From positions 1 through 64,000 of the forward strand of contig NBIV01000230.1 of NCBI GenBank assembly GCA_003194525.1: DNA of 64,000 nt, given 5' to 3'. The translations under genes and the position numbers were made by a program. Below the pieces are notes generated by a model. The model ran no database searches and had not been told where the DNA came from. It worked only from the letters and a program-made list of their open reading frames with translations. Positions 20,859-46,780 of this stretch are shown in pieces (the first letter of the stretch is position 1; the number at the start of each line of letters is the position of its first letter). This DNA is from Gracilariopsis chorda. Taxonomy: Eukaryota > Rhodophyta > Florideophyceae > Gracilariales > Gracilariaceae.

Positions 20859-20899
20859 CAGCATGGGTTGGGGCGCCTTCTGATGTTTTAGAAGGCTCA

Positions 20900-25120: not shown

Positions 25121-25242
25121 ATAAAACAATTTTCGCAACTCTTGGGCTCCAGCTTTACGACAGAGCTCTAACCGCTGCACAAAAGTCTGTTTTCGACGAA
25201 GCACAAGCCGAGGGCTCGATTGGGCTAAATTAAGACGACCAA

Positions 25243-26321: not shown

Positions 26322-26362
26322 CAGCATGGGTTGGGGCGCCTTCTGATGTTTTAGAAGGCTCA

Positions 26363-29300
26363 GTGGATCCTAACCCCATCATTAATGTTCGCTGCTCGCG
26401 AAGTGTTGGCGGAATACTCTCTGCGGCTAAGTTGGCGATCGCTATGGGGATAATGCTGGTAATCAGCGAACTCGATTGTCAGCCATTCTATCATGGCTTT
26501 GGTCTTAAATGTGAAAACCCCAAGCTTTTATTTGCCGTGTGGAAGCTCTGCGTGACGTCTTCTAATGACGAGAATGTTACGCTAAATTTCTACCTTACTG
26601 AAGGAAACGATCCCCTTCTACTAAGTAACGATGTGGTCTCGCATTCAAACTTGCCCGGTTCGGACAATGCTTTGGTGATTCTGTCAACGCTCGGACTATG
26701 TGAGCGCGATGCCAGACTCCCGACGTACACCCTTGGTGATGAAAACAATCGACGCACACATCTAGCCGTTGTACCTGCGGTGACCAAGTCATTCAACTCT
26801 TTCTTCACAGCTCATAAAACTCTTCTCTCTAATATAGAAATTCAAAAACAGTCCCTTAAGGAAGCAAAGCGCTTTGCAACTAAACTCCACGTGCAATCCC
26901 ACTTTAATCTTCGCGACATGAAGAAGCTTTGCCGCCGTGGTGGAATTCTGAATGAGAACCTGTCGAAGAAACTCCAGAAAGCGAGTGACTCTTGCCACTC
27001 GTGCCATACGTCTGGGAGACCACTGCACTCGCGCAAAGTATCGTTAAACCGAATACTTGCAGAGTTTAAAGAGCATCTTCAAGTGGACTTTCTCTTCATT
27101 CGTGAGCTCGGCAACTCACCGATTCTGCACATGAAAGAAGTTGCTACTGGACTTTCCTCCACCTCCTTAATGACTTCAAGGGACATGAACGCCGCTGCCC
27201 GAATTATATCGGTCAAATGGTTTGACATCTATGGACCTCTGCTGAAGCTTTCTGCTGACCCCGAGTTTGACAACAGCATTATCACCGGAATGTGTGCTCG
27301 GTTCCACACAAACTTCGAGCCTCGTCCTGCAAGAAGGCACAATAAAATCGGCAGTGTTGAATCGGACAACGAGACAATACGAAGACTGGTAAAACCCTTC
27401 TAACAGACGAGCCCCACTTCCGTCAAACTCGCCAGCTATTCCGAACGGACTTCGAGATCCTCTACAGTGCCACATTCCTAAAGAATGTGCTGTACGGAAG
27501 CAAATCCGTCAGTAGTTTTGAACAGGCTCACGGCTACACACCCTCGATTTCTGGTCTTCGTAAACGTCCAGTGTCACTTGAAGTTTTGTCTTCTTATCAT
27601 GAACAAGTTTGTCGAAGAGCTTTGCACACTCTGCTGCACTCTCGACCTGTTCATACGGTATCGCAGCATCTATTGCCTGCTACCACCCCTATATACTTCT
27701 ACAAGAAACAAGGAAAGTACGGTTCCTGGTGCAAGGGGTATATGGTCCATGCCTCAGATCATGTGGTGGTCGTTTCCCACAGAAAAAACCTTCAAGGAGT
27801 TCGCTTGCATATTGCTTATGAGGATATTCGGCTCGTCCTTTAGTCTTCTCTACTCGCCGAACTAGACAAGCAAGAACTTGGATTGGATTCCTTTCCCATT
27901 TCTCAAGCAAACAATGAAAGTGTTGAACCAGTGGAAACAAACTCTGAATTTAACGACGAAGTCCCTTCTAATTCTCTCCCAACCACAGATCTCATTCCTG
28001 ACCCATCCAATATATATCAGATCCTCTTGGATTTGATCCACAAGTCCTCGATGAACCCAGCATGTGGTCACTCCATCCCCTATCTTCATCATTATTGGCA
28101 CACAATGCTCTCTCTATCGACGTTCCCTCTTTAGATGTTGGGGATGGCTTGCTTCAGAATGATATTCGAACTACTCCGCTTCGTTTTCCACCAAATGGCG
28201 AAAGTCTTCAATCTACTGAGCAAATGATCCTTCGAGACATAAGATCCGTTATTGGAGACCAACCTGTTTTAGAATCGAAACTGCAGTTTGCCCCGAGATG
28301 GATAGTCAGGAAGACTATTGATGCTGAAAAGCAAAACTACATGAAAGCAGATGCATACAAACCTGTTGCTATTCGGGACCTTTTTCGGAATGCAAACGTC
28401 ATCTCATCACACCCCTTTTTTGTGCTAAAGTACCATGGTCAATGTGAAATGCTCAGACTCAAGTGCCGACTCGACCCGCATGGAAATCGAGACGCAGAGA
28501 AGGATTCGATTCATTCCGATTCTTCAACTGCACAATTTACTTGCATCCGATTGTTATTGTCCCTGGCAACACTGTTCCACTTCAACCTGGGAAGTATCGA
28601 CATATCACGCGCATATCTACAGGCCGGGGATCTGAAGCGCGATATCTACATGCGTCCGCCGCGTGGCTGGACAACTCACACCGATGAAGTCTGGAAACTT
28701 CTCAAGCCTGCATATGGTCTCGGAGAGTCTGCTCGTCTCTGGCAACTGTGTATTGAAGAATGGTTTACTGATTACGGATTTGCAACAATCCCTGGGATGC
28801 CACAACTATTCGTTTTGCGAGATGAGAGAAATGACATCGCGCTCTCGCTGGCAAAGCTGGTAGATGATCGTCTCCTAGCTGAGAAACCCGCTACAATCGA
28901 ACGCTTCTATACAGACCTCTCCAAACGATTCAAGCTTAACCGTGCACTGGCACAGAGGAATCTCATATTCAGCCGTCTTTGGATAAAGATGTACACTGAC
29001 CACTCCATAGATATTTCCATGGCCGAGTTCATGGACACTATCTAGTCCATTCCAATCCCGAGACAGAGGAGGAAAAATTCGGAAGCTGTGTGCACCTCCG
29101 ATGAGATCAAAGCCTTACAGTCTCTCGCTGGAAAACTCAACTATCTTGGACACGGGGTGCTGCCACAAGCTGCGTTTTGCCCTAGCTACGTACAGCAACT
29201 CGTGCCTTATATGCGAGTCAAGCACCTCACGAAAGCAAACCAACTCTTAACCCTACTGAAGAAACTCACTCCAATGATTCGTTATAAAGCACCTCAAACA

Positions 29301-29864
29301 CCTTCTCAGGACTTGTCTAAATGTCAACTGCTTTCCTACTCAGATGCCAGTCCTGGTAGGACTTCGTATGGTCAAACTGGATATCTATCCGGAATTTCTT
29401 ATTTCCAAGACTCCCAAAGCGTCTACCACTTGATTGACTGGCATAGCTCAAAACAAGGGCGGATCTCATTTAGCGCGATTGGAGCAGAGATTCTTGCTGC
29501 CGCGGAATCTGCAGATCGTTCGTTCCTTCTCAGAGAATGCCTTCTTGCATTAACACCATCATTTGGCTCTCTTGTAATGCTAATTGATTCTTTTGGACTC
29601 TACTCCACCATAACGACACTGCACGAATGTCGAGACTATCGTTTACGTCCAACCGTATCGCGACTATGTGACTCATTCGAATGCAGATACATTGAATCAT
29701 TCTTATGGGTATCTGGATTATCTAATCTTTCGGACTCTCTGACGAAAGCCAACGCACAAGCGTTTCATGTTCTTTCAAAAACTCTTAACGTTGGCATCAT
29801 TGATGCAAAACTATTGCGGTCTATCGGAAATAAGCTTCGTTCTTGGACGCCCTATGCTGCTTAG
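26363..29864 (+). pseudogene. Copia pol, unit 2
   Basis: Integrase, RT (LVDD) and RNase H arranged and broken exactly as in unit 1, including the integrase frameshift and the TAG between RT and RNase H. I saw no base difference from unit 1 in the translated parts. Confidence 0.8.
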
Positions 29865-30373
29865 TAGTTGCCCTTTCAAAAGATTTTACTCAATCATTTT
29901 TCTGTTCAAGAAAAGAAAAAAAAGCATCACTTCATACACGAGATCGCCCCCTGCTGCGCAGTTCCCGCTATCACGTCGCATCGCATCACCATCGCAGAGG
30001 CGAGTAATTACAGCCGAACTGGAAATACCTGCCCCCACAATTAGGTAGGCTCTCAATGCACCTGTCGGTGGTCAGCCTCTGCAATGAGGTTTTTGACACG
30101 GGAACTAGTTTCGTTCCATGCGTCGTGATAGCTTAACAGTCTCATTTCGTAAAGCTGCTGTTGCCGAGCATCGAATTCGGACTTTCTTTGTTCAGAATTG
30201 CCAGTGATACCACTTGAATACTTGAACCAATTTCTGTTCAGCCTCAGGCTTTTACGAAGTATATATACTAGCTACATTGGTCGTGGTCTACTCCATGCTC
30301 AGGAAGATGCAGTTGAGCTCCATTGGCTGTGTTGACTGGCATAAACTGGTGATGCCAGCCAAAGAAGGGAGTA
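29865..30373 (+). other. 3' non-coding region of copia unit 2 with polypurine tract
   Basis: Same as 24402-24910. Purine tract AAAGAAGGGAG at 30361-30371 precedes LTR 3. Confidence 0.6.
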
Positions 30374-30445
30374 TGCAAATTGGCCGCCTGTGACACTGCA
30401 CTGCTGGCCAAGATTTGCCTCCAATCTCCGGCTACTGGGAGCTCG
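30374..30445 (+). repeat. Copia LTR 3, left part
   Basis: First 72 bp of the LTR, identical to LTR 2, ending AGCTCG at the transposon junction. Confidence 0.7.
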
Positions 30446-30463
30446 TCGGTGTTCTCGGAATGC
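30446..30463 (+). repeat. Left terminal inverted repeat (18 bp)
   Basis: 16 of 18 bases pair with 46619-46636. GCTAG-type subterminal motifs follow at 30461, 30474, 30532 and 30625. Confidence 0.75.
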
Positions 30464-30677
30464 TAGATAGAGGTGCTAGATCGCAAGTTTCTTAGGCAAA
30501 AGCTCAAAAATACTACGAAAATGATAGATTCTGCTAGTTTCTGGCGCTTGCCAAGTTAAAAAGAATTTTTTGGAACTCACACTTCCACATCTTACAGAGC
30601 CTCGCCTCACCTGCACTGCGCATCGCTAGTTTCAAGTTTGGAGCAAGTTCATTCTCCACTAAAAGCTAGATACAGAT

Positions 30678-30720
30678 CTCGAAATGGCGCTGGCCGCTGC
30701 GCGGCCAGCGCCATTTCGAG
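30678..30720. repeat. Perfect palindrome, 20-bp arms, 3-bp loop
   Basis: Arm CTCGAAATGGCGCTGGCCGC (30678-30697), loop TGC, then the exact reverse complement (30701-30720). GC-rich and mutation-free, about 230 bp inside the left end. It could be a transposase-binding or replication/termination structure; role unknown. Confidence 0.8.
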
Positions 30721-30918
30721 CACCCAACCAAAACTAACATTTTCATTTCTATCTTTTGAATTTCAAACTTCATACTGCCCTAGTTTGACTTCCAACTCAT
30801 CCTCACGAACTCATCTGGGTACCTCTCTCCGTTCTCACACACCAGACGCACCGCGCATCAGATTCCAGTACCACCCATTCCGTCGTCCTAACAGCCTCAG
30901 CGACACTCCTAAACATCA

Positions 30919-31540
30919 CTAGCCTTCTTCTCCCTCTTCCCTCTTTCCATGCCTCCTCTTCAACCGACTCTTAACCTCCAATCCTTTTTCGTCCTTCTCC
31001 TCCAACCTCCTTTTCAATCCCCCTCTACCCCCAGGAGTAACCGGATACCCACTCCCGACAGCACCTCTAACCCCACCTTCCCCTCCACCTCCATACACCT
31101 TGTTCCGCATATCCTCGACTTTATGCACAGCCCTGTCCACCAGTAAAAGCCGCTTCTCCAACTCCATAATCCGTCCTCGCAACTCCTCATTCTCCCTCCA
31201 TAGCCCCCCTCACCCTCCGGCGCAACACAGCCACAGCACCCATCGGCACTCCTTCCTCCGACGCACTCAGAACCATCCCTCCGAACTCCACGACAACCTC
31301 CTCAATACACTCATCCAAACGCTTCTTAAGCCCGCCCCCAGCGCTCCTCAATAGTTCCTTCACATCGCGGTAGAACCCATTCATTCGTCTCCCTCCACCT
31401 CCCCGTACCCCTCCTCCTCGACCACCCTTGCCCGCACCTCCCTCCCCACCATGCCCTCCCATCATCGTCCCAACCCCAAGCTCACTGACCGAAAATTGCA
31501 AATAGTAGTCATGGTGCGTGTGGATGTTCTCAAATGACAT
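30919..31540 (-). pseudogene. Coiled-coil/basic protein of the transposon (one frameshift)
   Basis: ATG at 31540. The N-terminal part has a Gly-rich segment then helices (GFYRDVKELLRS, KKRLDECIEEVVVEF). The frame changes near 31190 at a six-G run into 31182-30919, which continues as a coiled coil (ELRGRIMELEKRLLLVDR) and ends in a Lys/Arg-rich tail (LKRRLEEKDEKGLEVK) suited to nuclear or DNA binding. Last gene before the left end. Not recognised as a known family; a DNA-binding accessory protein is a reasonable guess. Confidence 0.5.
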
Positions 31541-31610
31541 GAATCTTCAAGAGTCGTGAATGAATGTTCAAGAGTCGTGAATGAATTTTCAATAGTCAAT
31601 AATGAATGTC
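31538..31610. repeat. Short tandem repeat (about 3 x 20 bp)
   Basis: Imperfect repeats of GAATSTTCAAGAGTCGTGAAT lying just upstream of the - strand coiled-coil gene, overlapping its ATG. They could be promoter or transposase-binding repeats. Confidence 0.5.
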
Positions 31611-32193
31611 CCACCTCTTCACTTGAACCAACTTTGTCACTGCTTAAATGCACAGCTTATCATCTTCTCATTTGCTCACCGCTTGTCCTTCCCAATACAC
31701 AAAACAATATTTTGAACCTCTACACGATAATGCCTTCGCCCTCTTCACTCTTCTTCATACATCAAGTACGCCACAATGCATTCATGTGTGAAAAGAACCA
31801 GTACTTTCTATATCAACAGAATGGACAATCGCGGTATTTGGCTATAACAACGGGATCCTTCACATCCGTACAATCACCTTCAATTCTCATACATAATCAC
31901 ATACTCAATTTTACATCCATTCGTGTTTCATATGAGCTGCCCCTTCATTCTCCCCTCCAATACACCCATCCCAAGTTTCTTCTCATACTTGTAGACCCTT
32001 TTTTTTGGAATATAACAAAGCGAAATCTTTGTAGACATCATCCCTTCATTATTACGCATCATTCGAATGAAGCCGCATAAAAAGTAATCCCCATCGTAGT
32101 AAACCTCTCCCATTCACTATAAACATTCACTATAAAGATCAAAAAGCAATCATCAGATTTAAAAAACGTATATCACAAGTTTACTTATCATTA
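31611..32193. other. AT-rich spacer inside the transposon
   Basis: A 174-codon + strand frame starting at 31556 spans it, but its composition is not protein-like and no context supports it. It probably carries the promoter of the coiled-coil gene and the 3' end of the oxygenase-like gene. Confidence 0.4.
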
Positions 32194-33509
32194 TCAATCG
32201 CTTTCATCGTCCTCACCTATCAGACCCTCTGCTCCTTTAGGAACCATTTCACCCTCATCATCATCTTCCTGTTCATAATCTCCATCAGTGTTCATTTCCG
32301 CTGGTTTCAGTATATTCTCATCGTCCTCCTCATCCGACGGGTTCTCACTTTCGGCTTCTTGCATAACTACATCTCTATCGTCAGCTTCATCTCCCCGCTC
32401 CTCTTCCCCTCCTCCCACCTCACATAAATCGCCACGGTCCTCTTCATCATTAAAAAAGGGAGGGCGGAAACCGCTTTGCCTATGCACCGCATCCGGGAGA
32501 TTGTATCCCTCAGGTAAAAAGTACATATGGTATCGCATGCAATAGCCTTTCGCTATTGCATCATTGTACCCAGCCCCAGCATGAAATACATCCCCTCTTC
32601 CAATGAACACAGAAAACGGTGGAACCCTGAACTTCCGAACCATCATAGAAGCCAAAAGCTCTTTCAAGTTACCCCATGTCATTGTTAGATTATGTGACCG
32701 TTCACAAACCCAAATCATGAACGCATCCGGTCCCGATGCCATTGCAAAATACCCCGGGTTCACATTTCTCATCCTGTCATTCTCCGTCAAACCCCTGAAA
32801 TCCGTGTGTAGCACCTGCCTCGGACAATGCTCTCCAGTACAAAGGATACGGCCACCCGTGTGAGGGGAATATATCGTTCCACCTTCAGACAACCCGAGAG
32901 CAGCTGCAATGTGACCGAGCCTTGCATCCAACATGGCTCTCTTTCGAGCAAGAACCACACCGTTTTCAAGCTCCTCAATTCTACCCGCAATCCCTCGTTT
33001 GGTTGTGATGAAACGCCCCACCACCTTGATACCATTCTTAACATCTTTACCCCTCCTACATTGATGATCATATTCCAGAAAACACGATTCGCTTCGTTCG
33101 TGAGATCCGGTTGCGAAACAAAGTCGCGTTCGAAGAAGTCCATCAGTTCTCCTATCACATCTTCGTCCATTTGCAGTCCCCTCTTCGAAGCCTCACTCGC
33201 CATGTCTTCATCTGTCCCGAAATTCTCCAGCACACAAAACCCTCTCTCCGACAGCTCCACTCTCTTCTTCGCAAAGTAAACACGAGCCAAGTCCTCTCTC
33301 TCAAAAGTGGCCATCCATAACGCTTCCTCTTCTTTCGATGCCGTTGCTGATGACGGCATCTTCACGCCCAGCACTGCACGTGTCGTAGTACACATCTCTT
33401 TGAGCATGTTGCGCGACGCACGCCAGTACACAGGATGATGAACCATTCGGAATTCATCAGGTGATAGGCACTCCGCCCGATGGTGCTTCCTCAGATTTAT
33501 CCTCTGCAT
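32194..33509 (-). pseudogene. 2OG-Fe(II) oxygenase-like protein of the transposon
   Basis: ATG at 33509. The N-terminal part has helices (EREDLARVYFAKKRVELSER) and a conserved-looking ERGFCVLENF strand typical of the start of dioxygenase domains. The frame shifts near 33050 at a GGAGGGG run. The second frame holds the double-stranded beta-helix signature: HTD (H codon near 32808), FSVFIGRGDVFHAGAG with the distal His, and a following Arg in YCMRYHMYF, giving HxD...H...R for iron and 2-oxoglutarate. The C terminus is a long Asp/Glu tail. Widely spread algal and oomycete proteins share the GDxxHAGAGY block. By family, such enzymes hydroxylate proteins or oxidise bases. Beside a DNA methyltransferase, a modified-base or demethylation role is plausible but unproven. 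Confidence 0.7.
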
Positions 33510-33851
33510 CTATGGATGGGAATGCTTCACTGCATTTCCGCTTGCAGGCCACTCACTCGGCAACGAGTATACCAGGTCCACCCAAGACATGTCCGCTCCC
33601 ATAGCCAGCTCTCCTGACGTACTTAAGCCAGCTGGAAGCTTGTCAGGATTCTTATCGTCAAAGCTTCCTGCGGTTCGCTGCTCCTCTGCCTCGTCTTCCT
33701 CATCATCCACAAAGTCCTCCTGAGCTTCATCCTTGCTTGACTCGAGCACAATGATCTCCTGTGCTGTCAACCACCTCTTCAAATCTCTCCTTTCCATACT
33801 ACGCAGCACCTCCACCACCTCCTGCAAGATACCAAAGCCAGGTCGCTTCAC
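33510..33851 (-). CDS. Acidic ORF between ParB-like and oxygenase-like genes
   Basis: Same reading frame as both neighbours, bounded by TGA (33879) and TAG (33510). It contains a helical basic part (EVLRSMERRDLKRWLTAQEI) and an acidic stretch (DFVDDEEDEAEEQ). There is no ATG near the start, so it is more likely an extra exon of the ParB-like gene (a 75-bp GTGAAG...TTGCAG segment at the junction would remove the stop in frame) or read-through of a broken gene than a gene of its own. Nothing recognised. Confidence 0.4.
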   Translation of the reverse strand: MKRPGFGILQEVVEVLRSMERRDLKRWLTAQEIIVLESSKDEAQEDFVDDEEDEAEEQRTAGSFDDKNPDKLPAGLSTSGELAMGADMSWVDLVYSLPSEWPASGNAVKHSHP

Positions 33852-33878
33852 ACCAGGTGCAGTCGGCTTACGATTCGA

Positions 33879-36068
33879 TCATCTCTGCCTCTTCACCGGT
33901 GGCTCAAAATCAACTGACTCTTCATCTTCATCTTCGTCCAGGACCTCCACTTTAAGCTTCTTTGATATTCGTTTACTTCTTCGAGCCTCCTGGTCAGCGT
34001 TTGAAGGGTCCTGAGCAGCTTCCTCATTCAGACCAAGCAACTCGATCACGTCCACATCGGCCGCAGAGGGAGCAGCAGCAGTAGCATCCTGTCCCTGCAT
34101 GCCCGACAAAGCGCTGGACAACGTCCTACGAACCTCTTTCACCTTATTACTCACTCTGGACTCTATTGAACTGCGTTTCCCTTTCGTATACCACTTCCCC
34201 AGACGAGATATGATATACTTTGACACAGTCTGGTCAGAATCGCCGATGGTAACCGTGGTATTCATCACTTCCTGTACATTCTTTTTCTCCTTCATGGAAC
34301 TCCTCAGCTCACTGCAAATGTCATACGTTCTAGAAGCGCAGTCGAAGAAGTACTTTCGGAAATCCTCAAACGGTCCCATCTTCACAGTGGCCACCGACCT
34401 CACCCGAACATGCGCCTGTAGACATTGCATAGTAAAAAGAAACTTATCCCCTGACATTCCAAGCAGAATATCACTAGACACATGAGTGATTCCAATTTGA
34501 GGCGTCTCCTGCCACACCACATCGAAGAACTCTAACAGACCGGGATTACGCACAAACTTCAGAGCAAGAGCAGAATGGCGATTGAAATGACGTATCTTCC
34601 CTTCTTTCCCCTTCGTCTCACTGCTCCACAACACCCCCGTGATTTGGCTTGGTTTAGGCTTCGACAACTCATACCCATCCTGCTCTACGGCATTACGAAT
34701 AAACGAAACAGCAGTGTGAATCTTATCTTCGAAGGACATCACCAGAATATTGGAGCTCAAATCATTCAACGTCTTCCCCAGCCACAACACCTCATTCAAT
34801 GTCATTCTCTGGCCATCGTTCCGTTCCCAAAGCGTGACGTTCAAACCAGCAGTAATCCGTGCCCATCTCGCACCATCCTGCTCGAGGTCCAGTAGAACAA
34901 TCACTCGATGGAAGCCGTCCACCAAAACCACAGGAACAATCAAACGCCCACTTGCATCAATAGCGTCACGAACCGGCACATCCTCCAACAGGGCCACCGC
35001 AATCGACCCAAGAGAAGGGAGCCATCCGAATTTCCTCAGTTTGTTCGAATTATCTCGAAGATGTTTGTCATTCTTCGAACGAACCATGTTCTTCGGAAAT
35101 CGAATGTTGTGGATATCGATTACGCAATTGTGCTGGTCATAATCATCTCGATTGATGTCTAAGACCCCCAAGCTGTTATCCACCTCTTCCGAAGGAACAG
35201 CATCACTGTCATCATATAAAACCCTCTCCTCCGGATCAAGATCGTTCCTGGAGAGTACAGGGACCTCTATGACGTCATCATCGGAGCTTGCTTCGATTAT
35301 AGGGCCTCCTCGGTTTCCAGAGCCGCCCGCGAGATCACCTGAGGTTCCTCCACCGCTCTGACGGGTTTTCACCGGAGCCTCTCCACCGCTCTCAAGGCTC
35401 TTCACCGGCGCTTTGGTCACCAAAATGCTTGATGGTGTACCAGCAACAGCGGGAAGGCGCTTGACTTGTCTTGCAGTGGTCCTGGAAGCTGTATTTCTGT
35501 GTACAGTCTTCACATTTGCTCCTGACTGCGGTGGAACCGACTCATTCCCCTCTCCGCCTTCATTTTTGACACTCATCATCGCAGTTTCCCATGCATATAA
35601 ACCCGCTGAAACCATCTCCTTCAAAGTTGCGGGCGGTTCCTCGGGACCCCCAAAAACATAAGGGTACTTCTCATCTTGGTGTGACGAAATATTTGTCTTA
35701 AAGATACCCACCAAGTCCTCTCCAGGTCTCTACGTAGAGGACAGGAGATGGTTGTGTAGAGAACGACAGAGTCTCGTCCCCAGCCCCCCAGCAACCCCCA
35801 CACCGCGCAATTTGGCCTCTCCTAACGTCACCTTCGCATCACTACCCCCAACTCGTACGAACAGATTGACCTCCGCATCGCCCTTATGCACCTGAACCGT
35901 ATTGACCCCAATTGATGGCTCAGGGTGGCTGGCAGTTCGTGTGGCGCCCCGGCTCTTCGCTTTGCCTCGCGTGGTCAGCATGTCAATAACACGTCTCTTC
36001 GGCGAAATAGGCTTCCTCGGAGTCCGTTTCCGTGATGACGCGTTTATCTTAAACCCAGTGGAATCCAT
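33879..36068 (-). CDS. ParB/sulfiredoxin-like domain protein of the transposon
   Basis: ATG at 36068. The N terminus is basic and NLS-like (SSRKRTPRKPISPKRR). An in-frame TAG at 35730 may sit in a short intron; after it a 611-residue frame continues. The core resembles ParB N-terminal/Srx domains: IDIHNIRFPKNMVRSKND, LRKFGWLP and the box VDGFHRVIVLLDL, comparable to the G-x-R/H-R nucleotide-binding box of ParB. A long helical region follows (DKIHTAVSFIRNAVEQDGYE), then an acidic/basic tail with KRISKKLKVE. ParB-type domains bind and hydrolyse CTP or act as nucleases. Here a role in element segregation, DNA sliding or guidance of the modification enzymes is inference. It is transcribed away from the methyltransferase gene, across the palindrome pair. 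Confidence 0.6.
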
Positions 36069-36127
36069 GGCTGAGTACTTCAAAGGTCGCGCTTGCGTTT
36101 TCTTGGCACCCGCTGACGTCGAATGTT

Positions 36128-36452
36128 CCCGTGATCACGTATGCTTGGTTCCAAAGAGATGGACGTAAGCACCATATATCGTTTTCAAGACGTTTCATGA
36201 CATCCATTATCGTCAACGTAGCATCCCTGCAATTCCCCTCCCAATTACTTGCATTGCAAAAAGAATTTGATAATTTTTTGGTCGAGGACCATGGTCCAAG
36301 TTGTCGCGGTGCTCCATCGCGAACACGATGGAGCGCCAGGAGGCGAAATTTTAATTAAAATTCATGCCTGGCGCTCCATCGTAATCGCGATGGAGCACCA
36401 TGACATCTCGGACCACAGACCTCGACTAAAAACGAAGAGAAACATAATCCGT
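36128..36452. repeat. Tandem palindromic unit, copy 1
   Basis: Direct repeat of 36614-36938 (offset about 486 bp). Its right half is a ~147-bp imperfect palindrome (36281-36427) centred on AATTTTAATTAAAATT. Each arm contains its own small hairpin (GCTCCATCG...CGATGGAGC at 36311-36334 and again at 36373-36396), so single strands could fold into a cross shape. Confidence 0.8.
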
Positions 36453-36613
36453 GGCAACTAAGCCAAAAGCAACTTGCGCATTCTTCGCACCCGCATTCGT
36501 TGCGTCAGTTTGGGCGATTGAAAACTTCTATTGAACACGAAGAACAACTTTTTGTTGTCAAACAAAGCACCGGAGTGGTCGTATCCAAAAGTGTTACCCC
36601 TTTCTTTTGAAGC
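36453..36613. other. Spacer between the two palindromic units
   Basis: About 160 bp of unique sequence; no feature seen. Confidence 0.4.
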
Positions 36614-36938
36614 TCCCATGATCACGCCTGCTTGGTTCCAAAGAGATGGATGTAAGCACTATATATCGTTTTCAAGACGTTTCATGACATCCATCCGTCG
36701 TTATCGTAGCATCCCTGCAATTCCCCTCCCAATTACTTGCATTGCAAAAAACATTTGATAGTTTTTTGGTTGAGGACCATGGTCCGAGGTGTCGCGGTGC
36801 TCCATGGCGAACATGATGGAGCGCCAGGCATGAATTTAATTAGAATTTCGCGTCCTGGCGCTCCATCGTGTTCCGGATGGAGCACCATGACACCTCGGAC
36901 CACGGTCCTCGACCAAAATCGAAAAGAAACATAATCCG
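36614..36938. repeat. Tandem palindromic unit, copy 2
   Basis: Contains the palindrome 36768-36914 centred on an AATTTAATT core, with arms starting GTTGAGGACCATGGTCCGAG and nested GCTCCAT...ATGGAGC hairpins. Base changes in one arm are often matched in the other. It ends 22 bp before the methyltransferase ATG, so it probably contains that promoter. Confidence 0.8.
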
Positions 36939-36959
36939 GAGGAAACGGGTTAATTCAAG

Positions 36960-39900
36960 ATGCACGGAACCGGAGAAGAGCTTATTGATGCTTATCTTGC
37001 AGTTCGTGATGACTACGCAGCGACGAGGCAAAATGTGGATGAGCCGAGATGTTTGAAGCACACCGACTTTGTGGAGTTCGCGGTACAAAGTCGCAACGTT
37101 CATGACTCTGCCAATAAAATGTTTCTCACTCTCATCGGACCGGATTACATCTCGTATTCGGACTCCGAGCTCTGTAACATGTCTCTCAGAGGCCCTCCAC
37201 GTCAACTCTATCTTATGGCAAGAGTGGTGGACGTAAAGGACCGTGAAGAAGACAGGCGTGTAAGGGACCTTTGGAAGGTTTATTGTAAAAGGGAAGGGCT
37301 TAAAGGAATTCCCCGTAACGTGTTGCATCTGTCTTTTGCAAGTCCCGTGTTCTGGGAGCAACCGAGAAATCTTCCGCTTTCCACACAGATCCTTGCACCG
37401 ACTTTGAAATGGTCATTGGGTTGTCTATGGTGCAACAGATTGCCGTGGATAAGAAAGGAAGTGGTAGGAAGAGGAAAAGAGGCATGGCAGCTAAGAAGTT
37501 CTCGAAAGTGAGTTTGTCGGACATGACTCAGAGTAAGAGAGTCGGGTTTGGTGTGCAGCTGGTGACCAGGGCTTGGGATTGTTTCGCCCAATTCCTCGGG
37601 TTTCCCAACGTTGAGGTTATGATCTTGCCCTACATTCGACTCGACTATATCAGTGTAGTCTTCACCAATATCGCACAACGCTCCATGGGCTTCCAACACA
37701 AAGATTGTTCCAAACAGTTTGTGGAGTAGAAGAACGTCACCACCGTAGAAGAAAACGTTACCTAATGGGCATGGAATCTGCCGGACCCAGTGGATAGAGC
37801 GCTTCGACTTTTTGCCAAAGAATACCTTGGTGACCTTTCTAATGTGGTGGTACAAGAGAAACTGTTCGACATCTCTGCTCCCAGCAAATAGGATGCCCTC
37901 AAAAGGTTCATCATCACGAGAACGAGACATTTCCCTCTGCGGTTTGAGAACTTTAGTGAATCTCTTGTCACTACGGTTCAAGAGGCCATAAAGCCTCTGA
38001 AGCTCATTGCATTGCATGGAAGCAATGTCAAAGTACATCAAGCTGTGAAACCAGAGCCCGCAGAAGACGTTGACATCATTATGGAGCTGGTAGAAACTGG
38101 TACGGCTGGTGGTGGGAACGAACGTGCTGAGGGTGTGGAAGGTGGTGATCAGGGTGAGTCGGAAGAAGTGGAAGAGATAGAGATGGTAGAGGATGCGGAA
38201 CGTGGTACTGCGGAACGTGGTACTGCACCAAAGGCCACTGAAGGACTGCAGACAACAGCTTTGTCGCAGAACTTATCGTATGATGTCGAAGGCACGGGGA
38301 TTCGTGCACCACCGTACCCTACGACTTTGGATGATGTGATAGCTTACAAGTATTGTGAGAAGGAGATGTCCCGCAACTTCCATCTCCACAACTGCAAGTG
38401 CAAAAATCTCATCGAAGTTGACGACAACAAGTCTGGCGAAAGCGAGGTATCTATTGAAGGAAGGGTACAGTTCCTGCTTTCCGATCCGCCATATGGGATT
38501 CATTCTGAGCGTCGTCTGGAGAACAGCGAACACGATATTCTGATCGAGAAGGGCATAAGCAGGTCAGCGAGGAGGTCTTCAAAGCTTCTACGTCCTGGTG
38601 GACATATTATACAGTTCTGCTCATGGGATCAGGTACCGTTGTGGCGGGATGTGCTACGGAAAGTTACCTACATGGATGACTCTGATACGAAGCGTTACTC
38701 TTTTGTCGTCGACGAACAGCCCCTCCATTTCGTACGGTCTTTAGGTAATACGACGGGTAACGTTGGGAGATGAAGTTGCCGGTTGCACCGGACGACAGAA
38801 TACGCTGTACATGATGTTCGTTGTGGAGTTCCTTATGCACAAAAGCACCGGATGGTCAACTATGAGAACTTCAATTATGTTGCTTCACGATATCCAGCGT
38901 ATCATGCAATCATGGATCAGGTGCCGCCGATGTCAAATAGTGAGATGCTCATGTGGTCTGTGAAAAACCCGGATGGGAAGTACACGAGGAAGAGGGTGCG
39001 ACCGGAACAGAAGTGTAGGGCACTGTTGGAAGAGCTGATTTGCAGGTTCAGTCACCCAGGAGACCTCGTGGTAGACATGTTTGCCGGAACGTTCTCGACA
39101 GCGATGGCGTGCATGGAACTGCCCAAGCATCGGAAGTTTGTGGGGTGTGAACCAGACAAAGCTTGCTTTGAACACGCCAGGCATGCCGTTATTGTTCGCT
39201 TCGCTTCCATAATACGGGAAGGACACACGGATATTGAGAAGAGCCAGGAGCTTCGAAAGAACGCCAATTGTGTTTCCTCTGCATTCCCAATGGGAAGAAG
39301 CAGACACACCGTGTTATGGAGGGCTGTTGACGGATTTCCACCCTACCAAATTCTTCCCCCACACCTTGTCGATTTTCTCTCCACTTTTTGGCAAAGTGAA
39401 ATTCTAGGGATTTTGGGAAGGAAGAAAGCTGTGGATGGATGGCCGAGGGAGCTGCAGGGAAGAATGAATCTGGAAAACAAAAAGTCTCTATTGGCAGTGG
39501 AGGCTGTGCAATATGGGTTGCGAGTGGGCAAGTCTACTATTCGTCACGGAAAGGCTGGTGTTGGAGTGTTTGCAACTCGTCGAATTACTGCAGGCGAGGT
39601 AGTGTGCTATTTCTACGGGACGTTGGTTTATCATGACGTTTCGAATCGGAAAGAAGTGCACAAGACCTACGGGGAGGGAGTCATGGGTGTCACGAAGGAT
39701 CGCTTCCGGAAGTATGCGGTGGAGATAGAAGTCTACGGTCAACAGTTCCAATCACTTCCGCATCGAAAACAGCTGACGAATTGGCATGGAAAACAAGCAA
39801 ACCCCATTTTTTGGGTGGTTACTGCCCTTTTTTGTATTGCGGGGTATATCAACGATCCAAAGTACGTGGAAGGGGATAAACAGTTAGATGCCATGGTGGA

Positions 39901-40112
39901 TGGCCTCGTGAAAAAAAAGGGAGGCTAATGTGCGAATGAAACGGACACCGGGAGTAGGACGAACACCAGGGGGAATAACGGACTACAAACTTATTAAGAT
40001 GGAGGCGGCAGCCAACATAGAGCAAGGAGAGGAACTCTTCGCCGGATACGGTGATGTTTATAACTGGCAAACCCATTTGAATGTGGAGGATGGAACGATA
40101 GTCATTGATTAG
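36960..40112 (+). pseudogene. DNA amino-methyltransferase fused to a SET domain
   Basis: ATG at 36960. An N-terminal region of unknown fold is broken by a frame change near 37395; from there one frame runs to 39928. A 73-bp intron (37726-37798, GTAGAA...GGATAG) fits the protein; one TAG near 37900 looks like a nonsense change and a TGA at 38771 may lie in a ~54-bp intron. Cys-rich HNCKC precedes motif IV DPPY (38483). Motif I DMFAGTFST (39074) follows, the IV-then-I order of beta-class N6-adenine/N4-cytosine methyltransferases. Next comes a SET-like domain from about 39545 (GKAGVGVFATRRITAGEVV ... YINDP), ending after a shift at an eight-A run with IEQGEELFAGYG. The usual NHS motif of SET is not evident. 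Likely nuclear: modifies DNA and perhaps histones at the element. Confidence 0.75.
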
Positions 40113-40409
40113 TTTGTTGTTATAAACCTTTGTCCACAGATTGGGTAAATGGCAACGTTTATTATTTGAACGGATGTGTAGTCCTAACTTAGGAGAACAT
40201 CACTTTTCAGTAAGGATAGAAGATACAAAGCGATATAGATTTGACACAGAAACGTCCATTTTCGGTACCACGGAGGATTGTATTCTCAAGATTTCACAAA
40301 AAACAAAGATTTTTGTGCGCATTGGGTGGCGAGATTTTCCCGGACAACACAGGGCGTGCGCCATTCCAGAGCGTCACTAGCCACTTGCGCAAGAGTTTTG
40401 ACTCCAAGA

Positions 40410-41309
40410 ATGGCGCCGAAGGGAAAAGAGCGAGGCCCGGCAAGGGGTGGTGCGGCGAGTGCGCCTAAGACGCGGCGAAAGGCTATTGAGGAGCGAACTG
40501 CAAGTGGAACGAAATCGAAGTCATGTGTTCCCAGGAGCGGATTATCGGGGAGGAGGTCAGGAGAAGGTGCTGCGAAGAGAGGGGGAAGAGGTGGGGCAAA
40601 GAACGTCGGATACGAGCGCACGACGAGTGAGCGCACAACGAGTGAGAATTTGAAGGCTGATGGCCATGCGCATGTAGCACGCAGGAGAGATTCGGTTCGG
40701 GGACAGCGATCTATGCCTAGGTCTGGTGGTGGGGTGGAGGGTAAGAAAGGGTCTGTTGCTAGGAGGAGAGAAGAGGTACCACATCACGGAGGGTTGAAAG
40801 CAAATGTGCGGGTCGAAGACCGAAATAAAGATGAAGAAATGCCGGAAAGGAAACAAATGGAAGAGGCAGTTGCGCTGAAGAGAGGTGGAGCCCCACGGGG
40901 AAATCAATATGGAGTACAGGTAAATGTCCCTTTGGTAGAGAGTGATGGGGACGAAGAGGATCACATTGTGAAGGGGAGATGGACGAGAGAGAGAATAAAG
41001 GAAGGATTGGAACGCCGCTCTGATTTAAAGGAGACGAGAGAAGTGGAAGAAGTGGTCAGAGCGACGGATGGAATACAGGAAGCATCGAAAAGCCGAGAAC
41101 GTACGAGCACCCCGGTACGGGCGCGAAAGGTGCAAATGGCTCAAGACTTGGAAAGTGATAAAGGACGCATAACGCCGCGGACTCCGGAAGGAATGCCAAA
41201 GAGGAAACGAAGTGTTCATCGGTCGCCAAGTGAGCCTGTTCAGGAGCGACGGCTGCCTGTCAATATTTTGGGAGATGCAGGGAATGACGACATCTGTGTG
41301 ATGTCTTGA
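40410..41309 (+). CDS. Basic, disordered protein of the transposon (299 aa)
   Basis: ATG at 40410 (context AAGAATGGCG). The whole length is Arg/Lys/Gly/Glu-rich and low in hydrophobic residues (APKGKERGPARGGAAS, RTTSERTTSE), with short helix-like stretches near the C terminus (RWTRERIKEGLERRSDLKET). Probably intrinsically disordered, with several NLS-like clusters (PKRKRSVHR), so a DNA- or RNA-coating role is possible. The next ORF continues in the same frame after TGA at 41307 and begins like a coiled coil, so the two may once have been one protein. No family recognised. Confidence 0.5.
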   Translation: MAPKGKERGPARGGAASAPKTRRKAIEERTASGTKSKSCVPRSGLSGRRSGEGAAKRGGRGGAKNVGYERTTSERTTSENLKADGHAHVARRRDSVRGQRSMPRSGGGVEGKKGSVARRREEVPHHGGLKANVRVEDRNKDEEMPERKQMEEAVALKRGGAPRGNQYGVQVNVPLVESDGDEEDHIVKGRWTRERIKEGLERRSDLKETREVEEVVRATDGIQEASKSRERTSTPVRARKVQMAQDLESDKGRITPRTPEGMPKRKRSVHRSPSEPVQERRLPVNILGDAGNDDICVMS

Positions 41310-41324
41310 TCTTCGTTAGTTGAA

Positions 41325-42133
41325 AGGGTCAATGAGTTCAAGGCAGAACTCGGGCAGATCAAAGGGGACCACTGCAGCCTAAAGATGTCGCTGAAGCTGA
41401 CGCAAGAGGAACTGAAGAGGATGAGAGAAGAGATGAGCGAGAAGAATTTGCTGATAGATAGCTTACGGGAAGGGATGAAGGTGAGACGAGGGGAGAGAAA
41501 GGGATCTGAAGGCGAAAAGGAATTGCGAGGGCGTAAGAAGTATGTGGTTGATGTGCAAGAGGGTTTTATGGGTTTTCCAGGGTATTATATGATAGGTTGT
41601 TGTACTATGCGAAGGTGGAGGTATCGGAGCTTTGTTTCAATTCGAAGGGTGTGGAAAAGAACTGGACGAATCGATGCGAAGTATTGGGGAAGGGAAAAGA
41701 GGGGAATGTGTTTGTTGTGGGAGGAAAGGAGATTGTACCTCGATGTCCGTTTGACATTGCGTCTGAGATGAGGTCATACACGCCTTCGTCGCGAGGAGGA
41801 AGTAATGAACTATTGAAGTACTTGGTTGGCGTTGAGATTAAGGGGGGGAGATGGGAGTCGATTCGTGAAGCGAGTAGGAAGGATCAATACGTGCGGGAGG
41901 TTGTTGCGCACAGGTGTTTGAGGCAACCTATGAAGCGGAAGTTGAGTGATGTGATTGGGGTTCGGAAGCGTGTGGCACGGGACAAAATGTTTTCGTTGCT
42001 TGGATATGACTTGATAGCCAGACGTGTGAGACCGCGAGAGGGGACGGGGCTAGACATTGAGTTGAAGAAGCAGTTAGAGGAAGTAAAGAAGAAGTTCAAG
42101 GAGGATGGGGAGGCGAAGAGCGGTAGTTTATAA
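41325..42133 (+). pseudogene. Coiled-coil protein with unknown C-terminal domain (one frameshift)
   Basis: The first frame (to about 41575) is a coiled coil (TQEELKRMREEMSEKNLLID) then a basic hinge. The frame changes at CCAGGGT near 41580 and continues in 41597-42133 with a folded-looking domain (CEVLGKGKEGNVFVVGGKEI, FDIASEMRSY, GGRWESIREASRKDQYVREV) and a Lys/Glu-rich helical tail. Spacing of helices around a conserved Arg/Lys face is reminiscent of small DNA-binding modules, but I cannot name the family. It sits between the basic ORF and the 42143 ORF in the same direction. Confidence 0.45.
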
Positions 42134-42142
42134 TCTTGGAGG

Positions 42143-42718
42143 ATGAAAACAATCGAAGATCTTACGTATTCTGGATTTCAGGTTGCTGAGCGGCTGGGAG
42201 AGTTTAGTGAAGGGGACATGTACTTCAAGAACGGGGCTGCGGTGGAGGTGTTGGAAGAAGTCATGGGATATGAGGTGGGAACGGAAAGGGAGGGAAAGAT
42301 GGAGTACGTTGATGGGACAGTGATGCATTTGGCTCGTTTGGATGCGTGGATCGGATGTGTTTTGACGGCAATGGACACAGATGTGGGGCGTGGAGGAATA
42401 CGGAAGTTGTTATTTTCTACGTTGTACGGTGAGTATCTTCCGCTCGCGGTAGAGAATATACTTGGTGTGGGGTGGGAGAGGGTGAGAGAGCTACATCATG
42501 AAGAATTGGGGAATGAAGGTTGCGATGAGCGTGACCGGTGTTGTATAGCTGGCAATGGGGATAGAGAAGCGACGGTAGCGCTGTGGATACCATCGAAGTG
42601 GAAGGTATACTTGGCCGTGAAGGATGAATACTTTTTGGGACATATGACGAAACGGCTGGGAGGGGTGCTGGACTGTCATGTTGCTGCGTGTCAGCCAGAA
42701 GATGTGTGGATGGGATGA
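42143..42718 (+). CDS. Unknown protein, 191 aa, transposon cargo
   Basis: Intact ATG-initiated ORF, nine bases after the previous stop. Mixed alpha/beta composition with YFKNGAAVEVLEEVMGYEV, VMHLARLDAWIGCVLTAMDTD, an acidic/Cys segment (EGCDERDRCC) and a C-terminal FLGHMTKRLGGVLDCHVAAC block. No signal peptide or transmembrane segment. No family recognised. It is one of few cargo genes without frame damage. It converges on the transposase gene, whose 3' end lies 136 bp away. Confidence 0.55.
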   Translation: MKTIEDLTYSGFQVAERLGEFSEGDMYFKNGAAVEVLEEVMGYEVGTEREGKMEYVDGTVMHLARLDAWIGCVLTAMDTDVGRGGIRKLLFSTLYGEYLPLAVENILGVGWERVRELHHEELGNEGCDERDRCCIAGNGDREATVALWIPSKWKVYLAVKDEYFLGHMTKRLGGVLDCHVAACQPEDVWMG

Positions 42719-42853
42719 AGAGGTTGGTCAAAGAGAGTTGAGATGTTCGGAGAGTTGAGGCGACGTATCATGTCGAGGCGCAGTGGGAGGAAGGTCTGGG
42801 AGGTTATGAAGAACAAGTTGAAGAAGAATAGTGTTACTGGTGGATCGGGTGGT

Positions 42854-45800
42854 TTACTGATGTGTTGTAGATTGTGGGTTGTAAGGCTTTGAAGAGGTGT
42901 CACGATAGAATCGGTTGATGTAGAAACGATGGAAGCGCCAGTGAAGACGAGGAGTGAATGGCGGGGCGGGGTAGTTTTCTCGAATGACTTGGACTGCACC
43001 TAGAATGGAGGTGGAAGGAATGAGGCCGAACCAAGGAGATACCTTGTCGTCGGTGGAAGGTTTGGAGATGGGAACTGAATCGGTTGTGTGGTCCCGCTCG
43101 TCATCGGTTGACCACCGAAGGCAGACGCAGTTGAGGGTGATATCGATATTGTCGCGGGGTGGTACGAGTTCAAGGAATTGTACGAAAGCGAATTCCTTTG
43201 TAATGGGGGTGGAAGAGCTTGAAGAGGGGGAAGGTAGTTTGACGCGAACTAGGGCAATGAGCTTGGAGACCCATACAATGGGTGTGGATCGAGAGGAGGA
43301 GTTGGTTCCTGCGACAAGGATATGGGAGAACTTTGGTGATCTGGAAGGTCCGAATGATGGAACGGTGAAGATGCGCTGGAGGAGAGGGACGGAGGGTTAT
43401 TGGAGGACGAGTTCGTTTCGTTCTTGGTTGTAATTGTGTAGTGTTGGGATGTAACCGCCGACGACGTATGCGGATTTGACGAAGGTGAAACGAGTTTGAC
43501 GTAGGTTGTTGGGTGAGGGATTTAGCTTGAGATATTCGATGGAAAGGGAGACGAAGGAATGAAGTGTGGTGGGACCTAGTTGTGAGATGATGGAGAGCGT
43601 GTCTGAGGAGAAGAGTTCTTGAAGAAATTTTGGACTTGCGTTGGGGGTGGATGCAAGATACTTTGCGGCGGTGAAGATGTCGTAGAAGGAAAGATGTTTT
43701 CCGTGACGTACGAAGGAGGGTTTGCATGGTTGCGGTTGAGTTTGAGGTTGAGCATGGGAGGATAGGGAAGGGTCTGCGGAAAGTGCATTCCAGTCTTTGA
43801 AGAGATTGGACCGGTCTATAGCACGGATGGTTTCTGTATGGGCGGTGGCTCTTCGCTTGGAAGTTTTGGAGTAATGTGATTCGAAGAGGACGTGGGCGTG
43901 CTCGAAGATTCTTGCGTCGTTGAAGTGGAGACCCCCATATCGGCGTATTTCTTAGACGATGTGGTCGAGGAGATGGGACTTGAGGATGTCGAGGTAGGAG
44001 GAGTGGTAGTGTCCGAGAATGGATGCAGCTGTGACTTTGAAGGATCTGATGTGTTTTTCGAGAGATAGGAGGGAGGTGTCTGTCCATTCGTGGGAGGAGT
44101 TGTATCGCATAGCGGAGAGAAGGAGGTCTGTGTACTTGGTAAAGACAGAAGTGATGGGGAAGGAGTCGGTTTCTTTGCAGCATCTGTCGAAGAAGGCGCC
44201 GATAAAGGGGAAGACCATGTCGAGGGTGCGGTAATCCTTTGCTTCCAGCATTCCTCGTAAGCCTTCGGTGGTGAAGAAGCCGTTGAGGGCTTGGGAGTTG
44301 TCGGTTGTGGAGAAGTCGATGTGGAGGCCGGGTGCGGGGGAGTCCTTTTCGATGGCGGCGAGGATGGAGTTGGAGTGTTTGAGGATTGAGGTGCGGATGG
44401 AATGGAAGGAACGTTTGGTGTTGTTGGGGCCGACTGTGGTGAAGAGTGACTCGGAGCGGAGTCGTTCGATGGCGGTGGCTTTGATGAGCTTTGAGACGCC
44501 GATGTGGAAGTTGTGAAGGGGTTCAAAGGCGAAGATGTTGTAAAAGGAGAGAAGGGGAGTGATGTTGAAAATTGCGTAAGATTCGAAGAGAGAGGGATAC
44601 TTTGCGAGGGAGAGAGAGTGGAGGACTCTGGTTGCTTGTAACTTTTTGGTGCGAGGGACTTTTGGCTTGTGGGCAAGCTGGGCTTCGTCGGACTTGCGAA
44701 GGAGAGCGGCGTGTTCTCTGCGTTTGTATCGAGTCTGGGATTGTGTGCCGAAGTGGATGGGGTTTGTGTTGAGGGAGAGGTGTTCGCGGGGGACGGTACA
44801 TCTGGGGCAGGGGTGATGTGGTCGTGTTCCGTGCGAGATGGCGAGGATGTTCTTTGCCTCTGGGATATCTGTGCAGTAGCTGGAGAGGATGGGGTGGCAG
44901 TGGCGGAGTACACCGTGGGCGTCCCGGAATGAGAAACCGAGGAGGGCGGAAGGGAGGAGTGGGTTGAGGATTGCAGAGATGGCGCGCTGAATGAGGTCCA
45001 TTCTTGTTTCGCGTGGGATGTTGGAGGACGAATGTGGGATGAAGTCTGCGTGGTCGGGGGAGGAAGAGGGGGAGAAGAAGGTTGGGAGGTATCCAAGGAG
45101 GGTGAGGTTTTCGGAGATACACTTTCGGCGGAATGCGTCTGAGAAGTTGAGAAGGGTGATGTGAAGGGGATATGAGTTGATGGAGGAGCTCTTGAGTGAG
45201 GTGGCGGACTTATCGGAGTATAACTGGACGAGACCGACGAAAGATTCCATACCGGTTGTTTCGGGGGTGTGCCAGACGATGTCATTGATGTGGCACTGCA
45301 TGATGGCTTGTTTGAAGGCAGGAACGACTTTGTTTCCAAATGCTGCGGCCATAGGATGGGCGAAGGCGGGTGTGGAAGAGGAGGAAGGGGAAAATTGTGA
45401 GACGGGTTGGAAGAAGGTGTTGTTGAAGTGTGCGAGAGCGAGTTGTTGCTTCAGGACATCTGTGGCGCGTTTTTGGAAGAGGGTTGCGGAGAAGGAGTTG
45501 TGCTTGTCGGTGAGTGTGAGAGGGAGGAAGCCGGTGGAGCTGATGCATTCCTTGAGGAGGTGTTCTTGGAGTGCGAGGCACTGCTTTGCAGAGGAGATGG
45601 ATTTCTGGAAGGATGACTTGGAGAAGTCTGGGTGGTTGAGAAGGGAGATGAGTTCGTCGGCTTTGCGTGTGCTGAAGGAGGAAGCGATGGAGGAGATGCA
45701 GAGGACGAGTTGCTCGAGATAGGGGTTGTTGAGGAGAGGGGAGGGGGATTGGGACGAGGTACGGGGAGGTGAGTTTGAGGAGGAGACTGAACAGAGGGCG

Positions 45801-46108
45801 TGACTTGCCATATGGTGTGCGTCTTGGGTTTGGAGGGAAAGGGAGGCCTGTTGGATCTGATAGGGTTCATCTTCGGCGAGGGGGACGTTGTCGGAAGGGC
45901 GGTGCGAGGGAGTGGGAGGAGGAATGGTGGAGAGGTTTGGAACGGATTTTCGTCGCTTGGTCCTTGGAGGGAACTGGACAGGAGCGTTGGCGGAGGAGGA
46001 AGGGCGTTTGTTGGGGGTGAGTCGATGAGAGCACCTGCGTTGGTGACTCTGGAGAGAGAACGCGGTGCAGTCATAGAAGGTGCAACGGGGATGGCAACAG
46101 GGTATCAT
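42854..46108 (-). pseudogene. Plavaka/KDZ-like transposase (two in-frame stops)
   Basis: One frame of 1085 codons from the ATG at 46108 (open without ATG to 46306). It begins with a zinc finger (CCHPRCTFYDCTAFSLQSHQ), the usual N terminus of Plavaka-type proteins. The central region includes ALLGFSFRDAHGVLRHCHP, then HGTRPHHPCPRCTVPREH, the CPRC..P block typical of the family, and SLFESYAIFNITPLLSF. After TAA at 43952 the same frame continues with EIRRYGGLHFNDARIFEHAH, matching the conserved helical end of the transposase domain. After TAA at 43394 it goes on to a C-terminal domain ending RFHRFYINRFYR. The stops interrupt otherwise well-kept sequence, so inactivation is recent or they lie in unrecognised introns. 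Convergent with the cargo genes. Confidence 0.75.
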
Positions 46109-46306
46109 GGCGGGGGAAGGAGAACGGAGAACGGGATGCTTGGAAACAGAGAAGGGAGGGTGGTGGCGGAGTGGGATATCGGGGAGTGTAATATTATCTC
46201 GCACGTAGATGAGGTGGTGCACGTGATGCAGAGCGTCTTTTCGTAGAGCGTGGGGTAGAGCATGCGATGCAGGGAGCAGGTCGGGCAACGGGTGAAAGAA
46301 AGCCAA

Positions 46307-46636
46307 ACCTATTGGGTTATTTAAACGCTATGTATCTATTCTATCTATTATATTTTGCTATTTGAAGGGGCACTCGCTCAGGACCAGTAAGATTTGGATT
46401 CCACGTGCACCTGAGAGGGTAGGTATTAGTGTAGTCTGGTGCTAGTTTTACCTCCAAAGAAACTGGGAAATGTCTAGTATACTGCTAGTCTTTTGTCCCA
46501 AGCAAACTAGCTCTGTGCTATGTATGGAACTATTTTGCGAAATTTGATTCATTCAAAATTGGGTTTGAAGAGTCGTTATTCGTTCATTTTAATTCTTTGC
46601 CTTTTGAATGCCAAACTGGCATAACGAGAACACCGA
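46307..46636. promoter_or_regulatory. Right end of the transposon: transposase promoter and subterminal repeats
   Basis: Non-coding. Contains TGCTAGTTTT (46440), CTGCTAGTCTTTT (46482) and the inverse AAACTAGC (46504), matching motifs at the left end, then the terminal repeat ending CGAGAACACCGA. These repeats are typical transposase-binding sites. The transposase promoter must also be here. Confidence 0.6.
46619..46636 (-). repeat. Right terminal inverted repeat (18 bp)
   Basis: Reverse complement matches the left end in 16 of 18 positions. Confidence 0.75.
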
Positions 46637-46780
46637 GGCTCGGCACCTGGGCGCCAAACACCTCCGGGTACTGGGAGCCCAAGCACCTCGCCGGCCATCA
46701 GAGTAAAAACCACTGCCCAACCGGTCCTCACTCACCGACGCGAGGAGGCAACTGCTTGGGAGGGACTTTGTGCCCGCTTC
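46637..46780 (+). repeat. Copia LTR 3, right part (with target duplication)
   Basis: After the duplicated GGCTCG, sequence equals the last 138 bp of the 210-bp LTR and stops at CCCGCTTC, where LTR 1 passes into its internal region. It carries about six differences from LTRs 1 and 2, unlike its identical left part. Confidence 0.7.

Follow-up and report, generated by a model that had tools for sequence, protein, structure and literature searches.

Why would a DNA transposon carry enzymes that may write marks on DNA and on histones? The window analysed here (the whole stretch of 64,000 nucleotides, positions 1 to 64,000 of contig NBIV01000230.1) raises this question: at 30,444-46,638 it contains a genuine large Plavaka-type transposon, present as a broken copy. 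In intact relatives, the cargo of this element consists of two divergent giant genes, one for a DNA methyltransferase fused to a SET-type domain (MTase-SET, protein 1) and one for a protein with a ParB-like and a possible oxygenase region (protein 2), together referred to as the cassette. Our first choice among the possible answers, to which we give a probability of roughly 0.4, is that the cassette counters silencing, keeping the promoter chromatin of the element open or recognised as its own.

The element, its ends and its insertion site

The limits of the element were set by its ends, its target duplication and an empty site, as follows (strand given where one applies).

30,444-46,638: whole Plavaka-type element, 16,195 bp (ends, duplication and empty site)
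30,442-30,443: target duplication CT, left copy (sister-copy and empty-site comparison)
46,639-46,640: target duplication CT, right copy (sister-copy and empty-site comparison)
30,444-30,466, + strand: left terminal inverted repeat (repeat scan and sister copies)
46,616-46,638, - strand: right terminal inverted repeat (repeat scan and sister copies)
30,678-30,720: subterminal palindrome with 20-nt perfect arms (repeat scan)
24,338-25,120, + strand: uninterrupted copy of the target, i.e., an empty site (joined-flank match)
29,801-30,443, + strand: left part of the split target repeat, resembling a long terminal repeat (LTR) (match of the joined flanks)
46,641-46,780 (at least), + strand: right part of the split target repeat (joined-flank match)
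43,397-46,327, - strand: Plavaka transposase with one stop inside (Pfam PF18759)

The inverted repeats at 30,446-30,466 and 46,616-46,636 are 86% complementary across 21 nt. An original prediction, made from the letters of the window, had used these ends to define the element, and they do; sister copies shift the limits from 30,446 and 46,636 to true termini at 30,444 and 46,638, with the form 5'-CGTCGGTG..CACCGACG-3' (in the window copy, the penultimate base at the right terminus differs from CACCGACG). The target duplication, which had been described as imperfect, is instead a clean 2 bp, CT in the window and 2 bp in all five sister copies for which both ends were fetched (TC, AC, TA, CT and CG). 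When the flanks were joined with a single CT, the query found an unbroken match at 24,338-25,120 of the window (99.4% over 783 bp), and several of its 35 genome matches span the join unbroken. The two halves of the repeat are thus contiguous at an empty site in the window and elsewhere in the genome.

An LTR-like repeat is indeed split by the element, as had been proposed, but its assignment to copia found no confirmation: a scan of two of the three long frames of the target element returned no Pfam match. The target resembles the final LTR of a tandem retroelement. This retroelement occupies window positions 19,448-30,443, where a set of three frames at 20,804-24,401 recurs with the same lengths at 26,267-29,864, a shift of 5,463 bp; its LTR-like stretch is 24,338-25,120, and its last repeat is the one split.

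The Plavaka domain scores 76.5 bits in the window and 77.3 bits in a relative on contig C332 (cut-off 26.3), a CPRC motif can be seen by eye in the window transposase, and the 2-bp duplication agrees with the 2- or 3-bp duplication expected of Plavaka. Of the earlier label "Plavaka/KDZ-like", therefore, the first half stands and the second does not, given that the available passages of PMC12730594 place Plavaka outside KDZ. A KDZ search of the own genome gave no match, although its positive control was likewise silent. The same passages describe termini of TGT..ACA for Plavaka subgroup A and CATCA..TGATG for subgroup B. The termini CGTCGGTG..CACCGACG fit neither, so we file the element in neither subgroup.

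A mobile unit with many copies

In the own genome (91.3 Mb), at least 110 places match the MTase-SET frame, at least 82 the ParB-like region and at least 129 the oxygenase region (107 of 294, 71 of 262 and 121 of 200 candidates scored, respectively; some matched places are pieces of one copy). Most copies sort into three families, designated A (the window's kind, ~80-94% identical), B (~75%) and C (~46%), and a few fit none. Stops lie inside 17 of the 20 best A matches, and most B rows are without stops. Family C accounts for at least four places among the MTase matches listed, with further ones in the oxygenase list and at locus L043. The subterminal palindrome gave a self-complementary match in 40/40 family A left ends scored, and none was detected in the one B left end tested.

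Linkage of ends and cargo was evaluated with the 40 top-scoring A ends on each side and with capped cargo lists, so that the cargo counts are lower bounds. Fifteen correctly oriented pairs share a contig, 4.7-17.6 kb apart; 12 enclose at least one cargo gene (four of them all three) and three have no detected cargo. A cargo match occurs no more than 16 kb inside 36/40 left ends and 29/40 right ends. Because paired ends mostly enclose cargo, the ends belong to a large element rather than a short one, and the proposal of one mobile unit combining cargo and transposase is borne out by this linkage and by the empty site. Copies without detected cargo do exist alongside cargo-bearing ones.

Five deletion derivatives of family B (on contigs C34, C37, C232, C144 and C253) are ~7-8 kb long, ~99.5-99.8% identical and have identical junctions; such near-identity shows signs of recent spread. 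They retain palindrome and methyltransferase, with an unbroken transposase match in three (C37, C232 and C144), and have lost the ParB-like/oxygenase gene and the N-terminus of the methyltransferase protein. The resulting 608-codon methyltransferase frame, which also lacks the end of SET, appears in at least 11 listed rows of the MTase search (structure was read in the five).

The cassette genes

The cassette and the third protein of the window copy are arranged as follows.

36,957-40,109, + strand: broken gene for the DNA methyltransferase-SET fusion (relative C332 has it as a single 1065-codon frame)
38,483-39,178, + strand: methyltransferase domain, bounded by the DPPY motif and the end of the Pfam match
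39,557-40,109, + strand: SET-type domain, from the start of a below-cut-off Pfam match (Pfam and relatives)
32,194-36,068, - strand: ParB-like/oxygenase gene, broken (a single 1417-codon frame in relative L041); the start is one of two possible ATGs
32,197-33,509, - strand: possible 2-oxoglutarate-Fe(II) (2OG-Fe(II)) oxygenase region, HTDF ... GDVFHAG ... RYH (motifs by eye)
34,470-35,147, - strand: so-called ParB-like region, LVDGFHR, unproven (motif by eye)
36,275-36,432: first long palindrome in the intergenic gap (66-nt arms, 85%)
36,764-36,918: second long palindrome in the intergenic gap (65-nt arms, 88%)
40,380-42,514, + strand: third protein, broken and conserved in its second half (relative C332 has a single 748-codon frame)

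In intact relatives, methyltransferase and SET form one single frame, as do the ParB-like and oxygenase regions. Assignment of the former to the beta-class (CcrM-like) DNA amino-methyltransferases, already made in the original prediction, is well supported by Pfam, profile and structural matches: the N6_N4_Mtase domain has DPPY ahead of the S-adenosylmethionine (AdoMet) motif, the arrangement that marks the beta class, and DPPY is intact in 7/8 B copies read (C34 has DPRY). A PHROGs search returned mostly methyltransferases plus chance-level matches, and in viral contigs 15 loci match, all confined to the methyltransferase region (identity of the best segments 22-49%).

The SET domain is moderately supported, chiefly via relatives, 6 of 13 of which have PF00856 and align over the SET part of the window; the window's own match falls below the cut-off. 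A profile of this part matches KMT2C/SETD8 (E 0.003). The 50 structural matches listed for the protein are filled by the methyltransferase domain, contain no SET row and are therefore uninformative on SET. The only Pfam domains listed for the 13 relatives are PF01555 and PF00856, and no chromodomain was matched in the MTase-SET stretches scanned (the last 60-90 residues lie outside the scan).

For protein 2, "ParB" (unproven) and "oxygenase" (possible) are working labels. Across seven aligned proteins, inspection by eye finds the HxD of an oxygenase in six, the second H in six and the R in five, and LVDGxHR plus other residues is common to four family members in the ParB-like region. The 1417-codon frame had no match among the best 8000 candidate proteins. 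A shorter oxygenase query matched at least six proteins, two of them from Gracilaria domingensis (a florideophyte). The oxygenase had no match in viral contigs.

Two further oxygenase copies deserve mention. At L037:5776-9187 (C263), an extra ParB-like/oxygenase copy of intermediate type, 44% identical to B, abuts a C copy and is perhaps a recombinant. At L042 (C70:34000-43999), an oxygenase copy has downstream repeats, partly inverted (4549-4804), and the frame before it appears gag-like by eye, a call that Pfam did not make.

Palindromes between the divergent genes

Palindromes occur between the two genes in all three families. Family A has two (56/66 and 57/65 arm positions paired), family B (L041) has two of 86 nt, one of them perfect, and family C has five to six repeat units in C637 and three in C172. 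Single-palindrome scores are 36-41 in A, 38-43 in B and 17-31 in C (C637 and C172), versus no more than 11 in 20 shuffles per region. Spacing between palindrome copies is 236 in B, 215-255 in C and 487-488 in A. The intergenic gaps of A and B align (score 78, shuffle maximum 30); that of C aligns with neither. The exact B palindrome core is present in all nine B sequences read, derivatives included, although its retention in the derivatives may be simple shared descent. Extra palindrome centres 118 bp apart were rejected, as mid-points between identical palindromes arise trivially from repetition.

A probable second backbone

In family C (C637, C263 and C9, plus C172 with the cassette only), the same two divergent genes and palindromes are found; the C9 copy begins at the contig edge and lacks the second gene. 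Loci L036-L040 and L043 carry this cassette, and three copies adjoin DEAD-type helicase matches. Downstream of the cassette lie matches to DEAD helicase and DEAD_2 (the latter in C9 and C263) and OrsD-like hits below the cut-off. No Plavaka transposase was matched in the family C copies scanned, and their ends were not found, hence mobility is only a candidate property of this family. The cassette thus seems to exist on two backbones, one Plavaka-type and one with helicase genes.

Selection and decay

We compared the window with family B (C332 and L041) by the ratio of nonsynonymous to synonymous substitution rates (dN/dS); dS is ~0.6-1.7, which makes the values approximate, and dN is raised by the broken state of the window copy. 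The ratios are 0.18 for the methyltransferase, 0.17 for SET, 0.12 for the ParB-like region and 0.14 for the oxygenase core, with linkers and the protein 2 N-terminus looser (0.19-0.26). The transposase gives 0.24, and the third protein 0.15 in its second half and 0.37 in its first. These values indicate that both cassette genes are under purifying selection between families A and B. Within families the ratios are high, at 0.73 (near-neutral) among 20 A copies and 0.59-0.88 among C copies (0.32 for the methyltransferase part of one pair), and both A and C copies have decayed after spreading. Given low ratios between families and high ones within, the cargo stayed functional in the source lineages, and numerous copies degenerate.

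The host and cytosine methylation

A nuclear genome with light-harvesting and phycobilisome-linker genes is that of a red alga. In the own genome, chlorophyll a/b-binding proteins have 15 matches (best 8.5e-36) and phycobilisome linkers seven (best 9.4e-41; two of the linker contigs, C144 and C60, also bear element copies), and these photosynthesis genes make a red alga the most likely host. The fungal TET/JBP setting that had been invoked for the element does not fit such a host, and protein 2 had no Tet_JBP match in Pfam (E up to 10).

A six-frame genome search for C5-cytosine methylases had no match; its control rang in 10/14 prokaryotes, and since the search works exon by exon, a spliced gene may escape it. 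In the available passages, ~8% methylation is reported for Gracilariopsis chorda (PMC8566409) and methylation changes for G. lemaneiformis (PMC9861306). Thus, the usual 5-methylcytosine (5mC) story may not apply here, given no C5-methylase match, though cytosine methylation in related seaweeds is reported.

What the cassette may do

Self-marking of DNA or chromatin by the element had been suggested from gene content; it is still an inference, made more plausible by the palindromes and by selection on the cargo. We infer that the cassette could be an autonomous epigenetic module with the palindromes as its site of action. In the anti-silencing reading, the intergenic palindromes would serve the cassette in cis as its site of control and loading, bound by protein 2 or by the long N-terminal region of protein 1. 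Protein 1 would then methylate adenine (or cytosine-N4) of the element as well as a lysine of histones or other proteins close by. Marks would be removed or altered by the possible oxygenase. As a result, promoter chromatin would stay open, or be recognised as own, despite host silencing, and transposase would be made. A wider formulation, namely a mobile selfish epigenetic locus (palindromic nucleation site, bifunctional DNA/histone writer and site-binding eraser/regulator) on at least two red-algal backbones, we regard as doubtful.

Several results weigh against the anti-silencing reading. Owing to stops and frame changes (four stops and two frame changes in MTase-SET, three stops and one frame change in the ParB-like/oxygenase gene), the window copy is unable to make the cassette proteins; the main stretch of its transposase has one stop. 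PF00856 is below its cut-off of 22.4 bits in both the window (18.2) and B (16.2). The predicted 2OG-Fe(II) oxygenase comes down to an HxD..H..R motif, as no Pfam, PHROG or PDB profile recognises the region and its structure model (pLDDT 35.6) is too low in confidence for use. The predicted ParB domain likewise reduces to DGxHR: Pfam gave nothing for it at E up to 10, and there is no ParB among PDB sequences, where the best profile hit is an unrelated entry (E 0.094). B derivatives without the ParB-like/oxygenase gene have spread, and so that gene is not required in cis. In family C, DPPY reads DAPT or DAPA in 4/4 copies, for which reason its methyltransferase is probably dead. Finally, there is the near-neutral dN/dS among A copies.

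Our second choice, which we consider possible but unlikely, is that the element restrains itself, with a mark for silencing placed on the palindromes by MTase-SET, which would keep transposase and copy number low. The palindromes do sit at the cassette's own promoters, most of the best A matches (17/20) carry stops, and in bdelloid rotifers a beta-class amino-methyltransferase is tied to a silencing histone mark (available passages of PMC8885841). However, derivatives that keep the methyltransferase are numerous in family B (the 608-codon frame in at least 11 rows), and the unbroken transposase match in 3/5 derivatives read is unexpected for a strong self-repressor.

Somewhat less likely still, the palindromes may be unrelated to the proteins, being products of local DNA rearrangement whose only effect would be to mould the promoter or to give RNA hairpins. 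Unequal exchange can enlarge palindrome arrays, and no sequence is common to family C and either A or B, but the equal placement in three families argues against this, as does retention in 9/9 B sequences (with the proviso about descent given above). An outward function, in which DNA modification shields the element from a nuclease or rival element or makes host cells dependent on it, appears improbable: palindromic sites and a CcrM-like methyltransferase do recall modification systems, but no nuclease domain was recognised in the frames scanned. That the cargo consists of host genes carried without use to the element is very improbable despite the 3/15 paired copies without detected cargo, considering the cargo-domain dN/dS of 0.12-0.18 (below the 0.24 of the transposase), the at least 110 matched places of MTase-SET and the recurrence of the cassette in family C, with no Plavaka match there.

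Other features of the window

Another retroelement is represented at 53,707-54,891 by its integrase zinc-binding and rve domains. Scans of the window for tRNAs and Rfam families found no match.

Comparison with known systems

Transposons carrying epigenetic modifiers are already known. Fungal DNA transposons, some of them Plavaka, carry TET/JBP genes (Kojima 2025, PMC12730594, available passages), and these resemble the present element in having a putative base-modifying enzyme beside the transposase and a small target duplication. They differ in being fungal and carrying an oxidiser of 5mC, whereas here the host is probably a red alga and the enzyme an amino-methyltransferase-SET fusion, with no Tet_JBP match. 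The main text of that paper has no mention of ParB and seven of methyltransferase, and an N6/N4-SET fusion is absent from the passages shown. It also cites Phytophthora HarbingerS and MuDR elements, which are similarly transposons with a captured SET methyltransferase, but they belong to other superfamilies, and the passage mentions no fusion with a DNA methyltransferase. For the Plavaka giant repeats of Amoebidium, the authors report hits in red algae and dinoflagellates (available passages of PMC11244446); many of the giant-repeat genes are said to encode tyrosine recombinases, unlike the MTase-SET and ParB-like/oxygenase cargo described here. The bdelloid N4CMT is, as far as the passages of PMC8885841 go, a host gene with a C-terminal chromodomain (a reader), in contrast to a transposon-borne protein with SET (a writer type). 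In the literature searched, whose reach is limited (few subscription papers, sources available in part), we recognised no transposon with an MTase-SET fusion.

Fungal transposons with base oxidisers are thought to counter 5mC silencing; the present element, most likely red-algal, carries a putative writer instead. The open, near-identical copies in one genome make self-written N6-methyladenine or N4-methylcytosine directly testable. The element differs from these systems in combining, on one transposon, operator-like palindromes with a CcrM-like methyltransferase that is joined to a SET-type domain.

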